Source of the DNA: Bdellovibrionota bacterium | GTDB lineage: Bacteria > Bdellovibrionota > Bdellovibrionia > Bdellovibrionales > JAEYZS01 | Direction: 5' to 3' | Assembly: GCA_040386775.1 (NCBI GenBank) | Contig: JAZKEU010000018.1 | Coordinates: forward strand, 1-64,000 | Length of the DNA stretch: 64,000 nt | Part shown: piece by piece, positions 3,793 through 9,389 of the stretch | Layout of the letters: every line of letters starts with the position of its first letter | Numbering within the stretch: position 1 is the first letter of the stretch | The notes under the pieces: generated by a model | What the model was told of the DNA's origin: nothing | Database searches by the model: none | The model's input: only the letters and a program-made list of their open reading frames with translations | Program-made: the position numbers and the translations under genes

Positions 3793-6700
3793 TTAAATCG
3801 TATGATCATGACTCTTATCAGAACCATTAGAAACTTTGGTGTGCTTTAAATCCAATTTTGCATTTGGATCTGCAGGCGCCACAATTTTCTTCACCGTAGC
3901 GAGTGACCAAACTCTAAATCTCTCTAAGTAAGTGTAAGCAGCCGGTACAACCACTAACGTGAGCAATGTCGAGCTGATCAATCCACCGATGGCTGCGATT
4001 CCCATACTTGTTCTTTGTTTAGAAGCTTCGTTCAATCCAATTGCTAGCGGAATCATACCGGCAACGAGGGCAATCGTCGTCATCAAGATCGGTCTTAATC
4101 TTACGCGACCAGCTTCGATCAAGGCTTGTGATCTATCTACACCTTTTTGCACGAGCTGGTTCGTATAATCGACCAGCAAGATGGAGTTCTTGGTCGAGAC
4201 TCCGAGGAGCATGATGATCCCGATCCACGAGAAGATATTTAAGGATTCATTCATGAGTAACAACGCAAAGAATGATCCTGAAATCGCAAGTGGTAAGGCC
4301 AGCATGATCGTAAATGGCGTAATGAACGATTCATATAAACTTGCTAGCACAAAGTAAATGAAGAGCACGCCTAAGCTCAATGCGATCATCATGTTCACGC
4401 CCAGCTCTTGGAAGTTCTCTGCTTGACCAACAAACACGAAGCCCATTCCATCTGGCAACTTTGTATCCTCGTCCACAGTTAACATCTTTGTCACTTCTGC
4501 GATGATATCGCCAAAACCTGCGCCGGGAGCAACGTCACCATTGATTTGCACATAGCGAATTCTATTTTGTCGAGTCACTTTAGAAGGACCAACAGTTTCA
4601 ATGGGCTCTGCTAATCTATTGAGAGGAACTAATTTTCCGTTGATGTTCGGAATGTAGGTTTCATCAAAGAAGGCTTTTAAATCTCTTTGATCATCTTGCA
4701 ATCTGACACGGATATCATATTCACGATCCGTCTCTCTGAATTTTGCCGGAGTTGCTCCATCCACAAGTGTTCTCATTTCACCGCCAGCCATCAGAGTTGA
4801 AATTCCCAGTTGTTGAAGTTTCGCCTGATCAAACTTCACTTGGAATTCTGGTTTGCCTGGTCGGAAGTTAATATCTGGATCTGAAACTTTTCCACTTTTC
4901 TTAACTTTTTCTAAAACCTTTAGAGCAATTTCTTCGAGTTTCTTTTGATCTGTTCCCGTGATGTTCACATTGAAAGGTCGTAGCCCTCCGCCCACAGCAT
5001 CGTAATCTTTCACGGCTGGAGTGGCGTAAGCATACTCTTTCAGTTGTTCTCTAATTCTTGCCTTCACATCACTCGTGCTTGTGCCTCTTCTTTCTTTGTA
5101 TGGAATAAGTCTGACATAAGTTGTGGAGTTCGAAGCTTCACCATCGGCATTACCCACCATAAGGGCAGAGACAGCAATCTCTCTGTTACTTCTAATGACC
5201 TCATCGACCTTTTGACTAACTTCCGTCATCTTTTCGATACTGGTTCCTGGAGGTAAAGACAAGCTCACCATGAATTCACCTGAGTCTTGCGGTGGTAAGA
5301 ATGTTTTGGTTACAAAACTTGCTGCCACAATACTGATTATGAAAATCCCTAAACTCATACTTAAAGTTTTAAGCGGATGGACAATGACCCATTTGATTAC
5401 CTTTTCGTATACGTTCTCGAGCCAAGTTTGGAATCTATCAAAAGGCATTAATAAATTTCTTTTGATAAATCCAGGGTTAGAGTTGTCATGCTCACTTTTA
5501 CTAGCAAGGTATGCAGAAAGCATCGGTGCAATCGTAAGAGCGTCAAACAAAGAAATGATCATCGCAAAACAGACGGTGAGTCCGAATTCTTTAAAGAACT
5601 GACCAACCACGCCTTGTAAAAATCCAACGGGACCAAACACTGCGATCACGGCAAGAGTTGTTGCGATAACCGCAAGTCTCACTTCCCCGGTTCCTTCCAA
5701 GGCTGCTTTGATTGGAGTTTTCCCCATCTCTAAATGTCTAAAAATATTTTCACGCACAACGATGGCATCATCGATCAAAAGACCTACGGCCAACGTTAAA
5801 GCTAAGAGGCTCATAATGTTGATGGAAAATCCTGCAAAATACATCAGAATGAACGCGCCAATCAATGAGTTCGGCAACGCCAGTGAAGTGATCAAAGTCG
5901 ATCTTCCGCTTCCTAAGAAGAAGAACACAACGATTACGGCAAGTAAAATTCCAATCAAAATAGTTTCGGTTACGTCGTAGACGTTATCGCGTACAGGCTT
6001 GGCCCCATCTCTCACTGTCGCTAAGGTCGCCCCGTTAAAGTCTTTTCCAATTTGTAAATTGATGGCATTGATTTTTTTGGTGAGGTTATCAACTACTGCA
6101 ATTGTATTGGAGCCCGATTGTTTAAAAGCTTGAATAAATAATGATTTTTCACCATTGATGTAAGCTCTGGTTGTTTCATCTTCGAGTGTATCTTTGACTA
6201 CTCCAAGATCTTTTACAGTTACAGGTACGTCATTGCCCACAAAATTTAAAACAATATCTTTTAATTCTTCGATTTTTAAGAACTGCCCCATGGCTCTATA
6301 AACCATCTCACTTTGGGAGTCATAAGTTTTTCCCAGAGGGACGTTTTCTCCTGAAGCTTTTATTCTTTCGGAAACTTGCGTCGCCGAAATCTCATACTGC
6401 TGTAATTTTTTACGATCTAACTGAACTTGAATTTCTCTTTCTCTGCCACCAAAGATCTGAATCTGGCCCACTTGGTTCACTTGTTCCAATTGAGGCTTAA
6501 TCACTTGATCGGCAAGATCGAAAAGTTTTTCTTCAGATAAACCTTTAGCCGTGAGAGACACGATCAGAATCGGTTGATCGGCAGGATCCACGCGTCTAAT
6601 GATGGGTTCATCGATATCATCGGGGAGATTTCTTTTTGCTCGAGTCACTGCAGTTCTAATCTGATCTTCCGCGTACTTGATGTCGACGTCCAAATTGAAT

Positions 6701-6981
6701 TCCGTAACAACGGTACCAACACCTTCTTGAGCAATGGCATTCAGACGCTTAATGCCTGAAATTGTACTGATCTCATCTTCTAACGGCTTTGCAATGAGAG
6801 TCTCAATCTCTGCGGGGCCTGCGCCACGATAAGGTACGTTCACCACCACAACAGGGAAGGTCACATCTGGGAATAAATCCACCGGCATGCGTTTTAGAAA
6901 TAAAACTCCGGCAACCAGCATGAGGATTATAACGCTTGTAATAAATACGGGTCTTTTTATAGAAAGGTCTGCGAGATTCAT
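3793..6981 (-). CDS. RND (AcrB/HAE1-type) inner-membrane efflux pump
   Basis: An inner-membrane proton-driven efflux pump of the resistance-nodulation-division superfamily, expelling drugs or other hydrophobic compounds through a TolC-like channel. At 1062 residues it has the usual length. It starts with the typical cytoplasmic MNLADLSIKRPVF segment before TM1. It has the two large periplasmic loops and keeps the proton-relay pair Asp404-Asp405 (LLIDDAIVVREN), which matches AcrB Asp407-Asp408. It is the third gene of a tight tetR-OMF-RND operon; its ATG is 1 base past the OMF stop and its ribosome site (GAGGGG) lies in the end of the OMF gene. No periplasmic adaptor (AcrA/MFP) gene is in the operon or elsewhere in the window, so one must come from elsewhere. 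Confidence 0.95.
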   Translation of the reverse strand: MNLADLSIKRPVFITSVIILMLVAGVLFLKRMPVDLFPDVTFPVVVVNVPYRGAGPAEIETLIAKPLEDEISTISGIKRLNAIAQEGVGTVVTEFNLDVDIKYAEDQIRTAVTRAKRNLPDDIDEPIIRRVDPADQPILIVSLTAKGLSEEKLFDLADQVIKPQLEQVNQVGQIQIFGGREREIQVQLDRKKLQQYEISATQVSERIKASGENVPLGKTYDSQSEMVYRAMGQFLKIEELKDIVLNFVGNDVPVTVKDLGVVKDTLEDETTRAYINGEKSLFIQAFKQSGSNTIAVVDNLTKKINAINLQIGKDFNGATLATVRDGAKPVRDNVYDVTETILIGILLAVIVVFFFLGSGRSTLITSLALPNSLIGAFILMYFAGFSINIMSLLALTLAVGLLIDDAIVVRENIFRHLEMGKTPIKAALEGTGEVRLAVIATTLAVIAVFGPVGFLQGVVGQFFKEFGLTVCFAMIISLFDALTIAPMLSAYLASKSEHDNSNPGFIKRNLLMPFDRFQTWLENVYEKVIKWVIVHPLKTLSMSLGIFIISIVAASFVTKTFLPPQDSGEFMVSLSLPPGTSIEKMTEVSQKVDEVIRSNREIAVSALMVGNADGEASNSTTYVRLIPYKERRGTSTSDVKARIREQLKEYAYATPAVKDYDAVGGGLRPFNVNITGTDQKKLEEIALKVLEKVKKSGKVSDPDINFRPGKPEFQVKFDQAKLQQLGISTLMAGGEMRTLVDGATPAKFRETDREYDIRVRLQDDQRDLKAFFDETYIPNINGKLVPLNRLAEPIETVGPSKVTRQNRIRYVQINGDVAPGAGFGDIIAEVTKMLTVDEDTKLPDGMGFVFVGQAENFQELGVNMMIALSLGVLFIYFVLASLYESFITPFTIMLALPLAISGSFFALLLMNESLNIFSWIGIIMLLGVSTKNSILLVDYTNQLVQKGVDRSQALIEAGRVRLRPILMTTIALVAGMIPLAIGLNEASKQRTSMGIAAIGGLISSTLLTLVVVPAAYTYLERFRVWSLATVKKIVAPADPNAKLDLKHTKVSNGSDKSHDHTI

Positions 6982-6982
6982 A

Positions 6983-8407
6983 TTATTCCCCTCTGTACTG
7001 TTGTAGCTGTGTAAGAAGCGTATTCAATTCGGCTTCTGTTTTAATTTTTGTTAATTGCGCTGTTAAGTAATCTTGTTCAAACTGGAGAACTTGGAAAAAT
7101 GTTGTTCTTCCTCTATCGTGTCTTTTTCTTTCAGTTTGAGATTTTATTCTCTGTGATTCTTCAAGAGTGGAAACCAGTTTCAATCTCAAATTTGCATTTT
7201 CAATCTTTGCTATCAGGTTATTATAATCTCGCTCTTGTTCTTGAGCTTTTCTTCTAAAGGCAAGATCTGCAGCTTGTGCTTCCAATTTGTAACCTTCGAT
7301 GACGTCACTAGATTTTCCAAAAGCCAAAGGCATTACAAATTTTACGCCCACAGAATAAACCGGATGGTTGTCGGCCATAGACTCATCTTTAGCTTCATCT
7401 TTATCTACATCAAGGCCGGTCCAAGCGTATTTACCGTAGAGATCAAGAGTAGGACGATTTCTTTCTTTGCCGAGTAAGCTTGTTGCTTTGGCAGCCTCGG
7501 CTTGTTTGCTTGCCGCTCTCACTTCGTCAGACCACGTTTGTTCGGAGAAATTTTTTTTATTGAATACAGGCAATGTTGGCGCATCCAGCAATTCGGTCAC
7601 GGTTTCTGAATTTTCGCCTTTCAAAGAATTAAAGGCACGAGCTGCTGCTTTTTCTGCATCTAGAGCGTTGAGATATTCTAACTCTCTCAATTCATAAGCC
7701 GCTTTTGTTTGGTAGTAGTCACTTGACTCGCCTAAACCCTGGTCCAATCTTTTTTTAGACCAGCCTCTGAGTTTCTCTGCGACTCCCATACTTTCTTTAA
7801 AGGCGGCCACTGTTTTTTTGGTGAAGTAAAGATTGTGGTAGGTATTTTGGGCTTCAATAATAACACCTAAATTTTTTGCTCTCTCCATATATTGTGCGGC
7901 TTGAGCGGCAGCGTTGATCTGCGTTCTTTGCGCGCGTACCTCGCTCCCAAAAAAATTTTTCCATAGGGATTGAGTCAATTCAATCGAAGGGCCAGTCCTG
8001 TAGAAGCCATCATCATAGGGAGCGGGATAACTGAGGGCTGCATTTTCTATAAGATAATAATTTTGGCTGTAAGAAAGTTTCCCCTTCAAACCAATAGGTG
8101 TATTTTGTAGTAAGCTCACAGAGTAGGCTTCGTTGGTACTTTTGGTTCCGGAAGCACTGGGATTTGTTCCTTCTGTTTGGTCTACCGATTTTTGAGCTAC
8201 CACTTCAAGTTGCGGCAGGATCAGAAGAGTTCCTTCCGTAGCTCTCAATTTTGCGCCTTCACTCGCATCCTGCGTAGCTTTGAAAGCCGGGTTATTTTTC
8301 TTTACCTGCTCTAGGTAAGTGTCTAAATTAATTTTTTGCTGTGCGAAGCTAACTGACGCAAAACCTAACATCATCAGTTGAATTTTTATGAGTTTATTTA
8401 TTCTCAT
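6983..8407 (-). CDS. TolC-family outer-membrane efflux protein
   Basis: An outer-membrane channel of the OMF/TolC family that forms the exit duct of the pump encoded next to it. It has a signal peptide ending near SFAQQ, then about 450 residues of long amphipathic helices rich in Ala, Glu and Lys, with the internal-duplication pattern of OMF proteins. It lacks a lipobox. Its ATG overlaps the TetR stop codon (ATGA), which suggests translational coupling, and the pump gene follows within 2 bases. The substrate cannot be inferred. Confidence 0.9.
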   Translation of the reverse strand: MRINKLIKIQLMMLGFASVSFAQQKINLDTYLEQVKKNNPAFKATQDASEGAKLRATEGTLLILPQLEVVAQKSVDQTEGTNPSASGTKSTNEAYSVSLLQNTPIGLKGKLSYSQNYYLIENAALSYPAPYDDGFYRTGPSIELTQSLWKNFFGSEVRAQRTQINAAAQAAQYMERAKNLGVIIEAQNTYHNLYFTKKTVAAFKESMGVAEKLRGWSKKRLDQGLGESSDYYQTKAAYELRELEYLNALDAEKAAARAFNSLKGENSETVTELLDAPTLPVFNKKNFSEQTWSDEVRAASKQAEAAKATSLLGKERNRPTLDLYGKYAWTGLDVDKDEAKDESMADNHPVYSVGVKFVMPLAFGKSSDVIEGYKLEAQAADLAFRRKAQEQERDYNNLIAKIENANLRLKLVSTLEESQRIKSQTERKRHDRGRTTFFQVLQFEQDYLTAQLTKIKTEAELNTLLTQLQQYRGE

Positions 8408-9066
8408 ATATTGCTCTCTTTCGTTACCGCAGAAGTTTTTTCTGTCGCTCTGTTGTCTAAACCGTTAAAAAATATTTCTATTGCAGTGTGGATGAGGGAT
8501 TGTTTTTCTTTTTCGTCTTTCAGAGAAACGCCGAATAGTTTCTTACGCATATTGTCTGTTCTGATCGCATGTTGGATGCCACCCATAAACAGAACGCAAA
8601 CTTGGTTTGCTGCTAAATCAGATCTTAGGTAGCCGGCTTTTTGTCCTTTGGTGATAAAGACAATTAATCTTTCAAACATAGGCACGATGGTCTTTTTAAA
8701 TACCTCCAATACGTGCGGATCAATAGGGTCCATTTCGATATCGCGACGGATGATGCAGCCAACGTCTCCATGCTCGAGATGTTTTGCAACTACACCTTCA
8801 ACAAACATTTTTAGCTTCAGTTTGTATTCTTCTTTAGAAGAGAAGCTTGCAATGTACTTATCAAAGAAGTCTGTCATGTCGCTGACTTCTGTCTCGAGGC
8901 AGGCTTTGTATAAGCCTTCTTTGCCGCCAAAGTGATAACTTACTAGGCTGACGTTAACCCCAGCATCATCTGCGATTTGCTTTACGCTGGTCCCGGTAAA
9001 TCCTAGTTTGGCGAAGAGAGCTTGGGCTGCTCTGATCAGGCAGCCTTTGGTATTGTCTTGTGCCAT
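8404..9066 (-). CDS. TetR-family repressor of the efflux operon
   Basis: A cytoplasmic TetR/AcrR-type repressor. Residues about 8-55 form the helix-turn-helix (LFAKLGFTGTSVKQIADDAG then VNVSLVSYHFGGKEGLY), and the remaining 165 residues are an all-helical ligand domain. It is the first gene of the efflux operon, so pump expression is probably autoregulated and induced by a ligand of this domain. Five operator-like units lie just upstream (9094-9192). Confidence 0.93.
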   Translation of the reverse strand: MAQDNTKGCLIRAAQALFAKLGFTGTSVKQIADDAGVNVSLVSYHFGGKEGLYKACLETEVSDMTDFFDKYIASFSSKEEYKLKLKMFVEGVVAKHLEHGDVGCIIRRDIEMDPIDPHVLEVFKKTIVPMFERLIVFITKGQKAGYLRSDLAANQVCVLFMGGIQHAIRTDNMRKKLFGVSLKDEKEKQSLIHTAIEIFFNGLDNRATEKTSAVTKESNI

Positions 9067-9093
9067 GTATATTCCTTTAAATGGTTAAACTTT

Positions 9094-9192
9094 GAATGCT
9101 CATTTAATCTTATCGAACGATTATTTAAATATATTAAACGATCGTTTGAACTTATTAAACAATCATTTGAAATATTCAAACATTTGTTTGAA
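9094..9192 (-). promoter_or_regulatory. Array of five operator-like palindromes at exact 21-bp spacing
   Basis: Five imperfectly palindromic 15-bp units begin at 9094, 9115, 9136, 9157 and 9178. The unit at 9136 contains the perfect palindrome AAACGATCGTTT, and the last unit has TTCAAACA-TT-TGTTTGAA at 9175-9192. The six-base spacers are also alike (cttatc, tatatt, cttatt, atattc). The 21-bp period is two helical turns, so all units face the same side of the DNA. The location in the tetR leader points to TetR binding, which is inference. Confidence 0.75.
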
Positions 9193-9265: not shown

Positions 9266-9319
9266 ACATATTGTTCTATTAAAAGAACAATATGTTTTAA
9301 AATGACATATTGTTCTATT
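9266..9319 (+). promoter_or_regulatory. Inverted repeat plus half-site overlapping a likely DoxX promoter
   Basis: A 12-bp inverted repeat (acatattgttct at 9266-9277, complement at 9284-9295) is followed by a second copy of its left arm at 9305-9319. That copy overlaps a candidate -35 box TTGTTC (9310-9315), which lies 16 bases before GATAAT (9332-9337). Another palindrome, gcattca-tg-tgaatgc, lies at 9348-9363. The arrangement fits a repressor different from the TetR array. Confidence 0.55.
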
Positions 9320-9389
9320 TTTAAAAGTAACGATAATAACGTCATAGGCATTCATGTGAATGCAACAAACCTAATGAAAGGGGTTATAT

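Follow-up and report, generated by a model that had tools for sequence, protein, structure and literature searches.

PsrA of Pseudomonas is a TetR-family regulator of fatty-acid genes, whose box TTCAAACN4GTTTGAA was footprinted in P. putida (PMC13104628). As far as the available parts of these sources describe it, PsrA recognizes C/GAAACN2-4GTTTG/C in its own promoter and represses its own gene, and the orthologue Smlt2053 has two such repeats (PMC13104628, PMC10304680). EthR of Mycobacterium tuberculosis is reported to bind cooperatively as a homo-octamer to a 55-bp operator that contains both direct and inverted repeats (PMC9210681, PMC5403819). QacR, CgmR and RolR are described as binding in the form of a pair of dimers (PMC9210681), and pairs of dimers are also reported for RefZ (PMC6657595). 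RefZ and SlmA are TetR proteins that spread on DNA. A literature search, which included few subscription papers, found no tandem array of TetR sites with 21-bp or two-turn spacing and no characterised operator for the regulator family described below in Bdellovibrionota.

The locus studied here is located in a window of 64,000 nucleotides (the whole stretch of DNA that was analysed) from the genome of a Bdellovibrionota bacterium. It encodes a TetR-family regulator of 220 aa on the minus strand (8404..9066), which is the predicted binder of an operator array in its own leader. The TetR_N helix-turn-helix domain (PF00440) was detected at 2.5e-12 with 46.8 bits (cut-off 24), which places the protein in the TetR family. 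The AlphaFold2 model of the protein (pLDDT 89.2) shows the all-helical TetR fold, and its best PDB match is 3dew (E 8.9e-9, TM-score 0.73 by query length). The gene for a TolC-type outer membrane efflux protein (OEP; 6983..8407, minus strand) overlaps the end of tetR and is followed by that of an RND (AcrB/AcrD/AcrF) permease (3793..6981, minus strand), the last gene of the presumed operon. As in AcrR-like gene orders, the repressor gene adjoins OEP and RND genes, and Pfam searches revealed the order tetR-OEP-RND in all four relatives checked, out of seven regions fetched. The protein itself reaches none of the three equivalog cut-offs examined: AcrR scored 29.1 bits (cut-off 271), RefZ, the best NCBIfam match by E-value, 73.4 bits (cut-off 180), and the Vibrio PsrA model 50.8 bits (cut-off 300) with a match to the N-terminal part only. 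The tetR-OEP-RND operon (3793-9066) lacks a gene for a membrane-fusion (adaptor) protein. A profile search of the genome detected four full-length RND permeases, but no RND_mfp above the cut-off and no HlyD_D23; directly before another RND gene (G000:C5) there is a weak match that resembles an adaptor. The divergent neighbours of tetR are a pirin gene and a DoxX-like gene whose score did not reach the Pfam cut-off.

Reading of the tetR leader revealed five 16-bp palindromes, each step between them being exactly 21 bp. The preliminary description had listed 15-bp units starting at 9094, 9115, 9136, 9157 and 9178, and these positions are exact; the natural unit is the 16-bp palindrome, which begins two bases earlier in each case (9092, 9113, 9134, 9155 and 9176). 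All five units match TYAAWYNNNNRWTTRA at 11/12 or better, three of them at 12/12, and none is assigned to a strand. Unit 1 (TCAAACATTTGTTTGA, 9176..9191, 12/12) forms the upstream end for tetR and is followed by unit 2 (TTAAACAATCATTTGA, 9155..9170, 12/12) and by unit 3 (TTAAACGATCGTTTGA, 9134..9149, 12/12) in the centre of the array. Unit 4 (TCGAACGATTATTTAA, 9113..9128) and unit 5 (TTGAATGCTCATTTAA, 9092..9107) match at 11/12 each, and unit 5 is nearest to the tetR start codon. The half-sites occur approximately every 10.5 bp, in alternating steps of 10 and 11 bp and with alternating orientation, and a dyad is also found across each spacer (TTTGA-N5-TCAAA). Identity of the arms between units is 0.77, against 0.33 expected from composition. 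The spacers had been described as similar too, which was not borne out by their pairwise identity of 0.43 against 0.42 expected from the A+T-rich composition. The palindromes are held, and the spacers are held in length only. Curvature from phased A-tracts was set aside on the sequence alone, where TpA steps would interrupt the tracts. Nearer to the DoxX start, at 9266-9326, there is a second group of repeats, in which ACATATTGTTCTATT occurs at 9266 and 9305 and, inverted, at 9281-9295; this group is perhaps a hairpin or an operator for a different regulator.

The array motif is a TetR box of the PsrA type, to judge from the published parts cited above. Unit 1 with its flanks is identical to the footprinted palindrome of P. 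putida, and it also agrees exactly with the palindrome reported from the promoter of PsrA, whereas the other four units deviate from the latter at one or more positions. PsrA controls fatty-acid genes, whereas the array described here, with its five boxes at a constant 21-bp period, precedes an efflux operon. The presence of multiple repeats in a single tetR leader, five in the array described here, is a feature in common with EthR, but the EthR motif is a different one and its operator is compact, whereas full palindromes with two-turn spacing extend here over 100 bp. For QacR, CgmR and RolR a single compact operator is reported (32 bp for CgmR and 29 bp for RolR) rather than a ladder of sites. 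RefZ also has five sites, which are scattered over the chromosome instead of being clustered in one leader. Five clean units at a fixed phase are unusual among the systems compared, while the parts are ordinary.

The longest 21-bp chain of units with at least 10/12 matches that arose in 2000 dinucleotide shuffles of the 200-bp leader was 3, which occurred once, compared with 5 in the real sequence. Even if any period from 16 to 39 was allowed, the best chain in 500 shuffles was 3 and was seen twice. The five-unit 21-bp array is beyond chance. The two-unit pattern with zero mismatches is unique to the tetR leader within the genome, and no second array or regulon was found there. Single sites number 21 in the genome compared with 16 in the control, and three of the 21 are located within the array. 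A search against plasmids gave only matches below 60% identity.

For comparison with related tetR leaders, two sets were assembled. The first set comprises 39 other leaders, namely 29 of 30 loci from the search for relatives and 10 homologues from the order. The search for related loci gave no relatives with the single protein as query and 80 loci from named genomes with an alignment query. After removal of 14 duplicates and 22 Bacillota, 44 new loci remained as a held-out set for the frozen motif, of which 43 were tested and one had a leader that was too short. At least two units of at least 10/12 at 21 bp were found in 18 of the 39 leaders of the first set (mean 0.22 and maximum 2 in 200 shuffles) and in 23 of the 43 held-out leaders (mean 0.225, maximum 3), with start codons assigned automatically, in some genes perhaps wrongly. 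The control periods of 20 and 22 bp occurred in one and no leader of the first set and in two and one of the held-out set. Periods of 25 and 29 bp were found at this threshold in five leaders each of the first set and in six and five of the held-out set, and they are nearly gone at 11/12 or better. A lower threshold of at least 9/12 was dropped in favour of at least 10 and at least 11, as it gave extra peaks at 12, 13, 17, 25 and 29 bp, which were ascribed to the palindrome and the tandem array overlapping with themselves. Since related leaders share ancestry, the leader counts do not represent independent events; the 82 relatives form 57 clusters at 60% protein identity, and 29 of these include a leader with the 21-bp pair.

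At 10/12 or better, the 82 leaders consist of 41 with a 21-bp pair, 17 with other spacings only (including 42 bp in six cases), 20 with a single site and four with none. The longest chain in the relatives is 3 at this threshold and 4 at 9/12 or better (L007), so that the own leader with 5 is the longest found. The nearest TetR protein found is 48% identical, and the nearest named relatives are two Bdellovibrionota metagenome-assembled genomes (L055 and L056), whose leader DNA is shared with L002 and L003. It had been proposed that a comparison of relatives would reveal whether the 21-bp phase is kept while the spacers vary. At this evolutionary distance, the phase is retained in many leaders, about half of them, and the spacers drift; the number of units is not constant, ranging from 1 to 5, and some leaders have spacings of 25, 28 or 29 bp. 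Among the Bacillota relatives, none of 22 leaders contains any site of at least 11/12.

The two-unit 21-bp pattern with up to one mismatch was then searched in 140 genomes of the order. It was found at 10 distinct places in seven genomes, while the reversed control gave none. Eight of the places are leaders of the tetR homologues identified in the order, including three within the own array, and the remaining two are located before a further tetR gene (G125, L160) and elsewhere (G006:C74). The latter is a pair with one mismatch at 1546-1582 of L159 (G006:C74:2545-2581), and no tetR gene lies behind it. In 133,741 bp of the loci L001-L040 with masked leaders, 32 sites of at least 11/12 were detected, and no pair of them within 63 bp. 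The four tetR leaders L161-L164, which belong to another family of the order, each have two perfect boxes, spaced at 28, 28, 25 and 29 bp, and a TolC-like frame comes directly after each of the tetR genes (the frames of L160-L164 were judged by eye). Two boxes at 18 bp precede a gene without adjacent tetR (L165). Because L161-L165 use other spacings, the plan with two boxes extends beyond leaders with the 21-bp phase. The 21-bp spacing is no universal rule, as single-box leaders and the tetR-tolC relatives at 25, 28 and 29 bp demonstrate.

The recognition helix of the relatives was compared with their half-sites. Of 12 leaders whose TetR protein has the helix NSS, 11 carry the half-site AATC..GATT; where the helix reads N[VI][SA], 48 of the 57 leaders with a site have A..T at the corresponding two positions. 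The association points to the own TetR protein as the binder, although it is confounded by phylogeny. Together with the PsrA-type box and its conservation before related tetR genes, this covariation argues for the earlier proposal that the units are TetR operators. The NSS group (L011, L015, L032, L033, L035, L036, L037 and L038) has the same 21-bp plan with the half-site AATC..GATT, and the downstream gene is a different one where it was read.

Leaders of two families, aligned on their best unit, share a TTGAnn in the right half of one unit; 17 bp further on they have a hexamer resembling TATAAT, which overlaps the next unit. Among 44 offsets, the TATAAT match peaks at the same one (35) in the sets of both families, with 3.5/6 in 10 leaders and 4.0/6 in 12 leaders compared with means of 1.9 and 2.1. 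At the conserved position, the own leader contains the -35-like hexamer TTAATA (9132..9137, minus strand) in the right half of unit 3, and the -10-like hexamer GATAAG (9109..9114, minus strand) is located 17 bp downstream and overlaps unit 4. Both hexamers match the consensus at four of six positions. As a consensus promoter scan reported neither of them, the position of the putative promoter rests on the alignment with relatives. Unit 5 would cover the predicted transcription start, which is expected near 9102 on the minus strand.

Taken together, the array is probably an autoregulatory, helically phased tandem operator over the tetR-tolC-RND promoter, predicted from the sequence comparisons to bind its own TetR protein. 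Each 16-bp palindrome would take one TetR dimer, as the protein family and the PsrA-type box suggest. Because the period of 21 bp corresponds to two turns of B-DNA, all dimers would be located on the same face of the DNA. The preliminary description had proposed that units in phase would allow cooperative, filament-like binding or looping, which for this array is a hypothesis. Since unit 3 overlaps the -35-like and unit 4 the -10-like element, occupancy by TetR would exclude RNA polymerase, and the tetR-tolC-RND operon would be shut down. Units 1, 2 and 5 would extend the bound stretch, and contacts between neighbours would raise both occupancy and steepness, while a pump substrate or a lipid-like ligand would release the dimers. 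Binding, repression, cooperativity and ligand are what we infer for this switch. More tentatively, the TetR proteins of the whole clade may act on a modular ladder, with a dimer at every second turn on one face of the DNA, each in contact with the next. The number of rungs, from 1 to 5, would then set the steepness, and evolution would add or remove rungs with the phase kept. On such a ladder the own array would be the longest case, a short nucleoprotein filament that swallows the promoter.

The five palindromes could also be independent sites, at which dimers bind separately and extra sites raise only the local occupancy, with the 21 bp being a relic of copying and of the -35/-10 geometry. 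We regard this as possible, though not as the favoured reading. The drift of the unit number from 1 to 5 and the existence of single-box leaders are consistent with it, and the distance of 23 bp between the -35- and -10-like elements could by itself hold two adjacent units in place. However, 21 bp are also kept by units beyond the promoter pair in several relatives (L003, L004, L005, L007, L014 and L018) and in three-unit leaders of the held-out set (e.g., L084, L088, L095 and L098), and the spacers of the own array differ as far as composition allows at fixed length. A doubtful alternative assumes pairs of dimers like those reported for QacR, CgmR, RolR and RefZ, which would use the dyads across the spacers as well and form an unbroken coat in which each unit holds more than one dimer. 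The alternating half-sites every 10-11 bp would fit such a coat, but a dyad across each spacer arises automatically because the palindromes sit on a fixed period, and it is absent from single-box leaders.

It is unlikely that the array acts on the divergent DoxX-pirin genes, be it in place of tetR or in addition to it. The array does lie within the shared intergenic region of 323 bp, but the promoter-like elements, whose offset is conserved, point towards tetR, approximately 200 bp separate the end of the array from the start codon of DoxX, and the palindromes recur before the tetR genes of relatives despite differing upstream frames. The preliminary description had also considered a decaying tandem repeat, and a functionless product of slippage would explain the perfect period and the listing of the array by Tandem Repeats Finder. 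With arms conserved and spacers at the level of composition, and with motif and period found before related tetR genes in divergent genomes and hardly anywhere else, this explanation appears very improbable and is disfavoured against the helically phased operator.

Drug pumps are commonly switched by TetR repressors, and the examples found in the literature search act on a single compact operator or on a few sites. A set of natural leaders with one to five near-identical sites at fixed phase would allow a direct test of how the number and phase of sites determine the steepness of the switch, and the ladder could find use as a component of synthetic circuits. For a phylum of predatory bacteria, the array gives a predicted operator for this regulator family.
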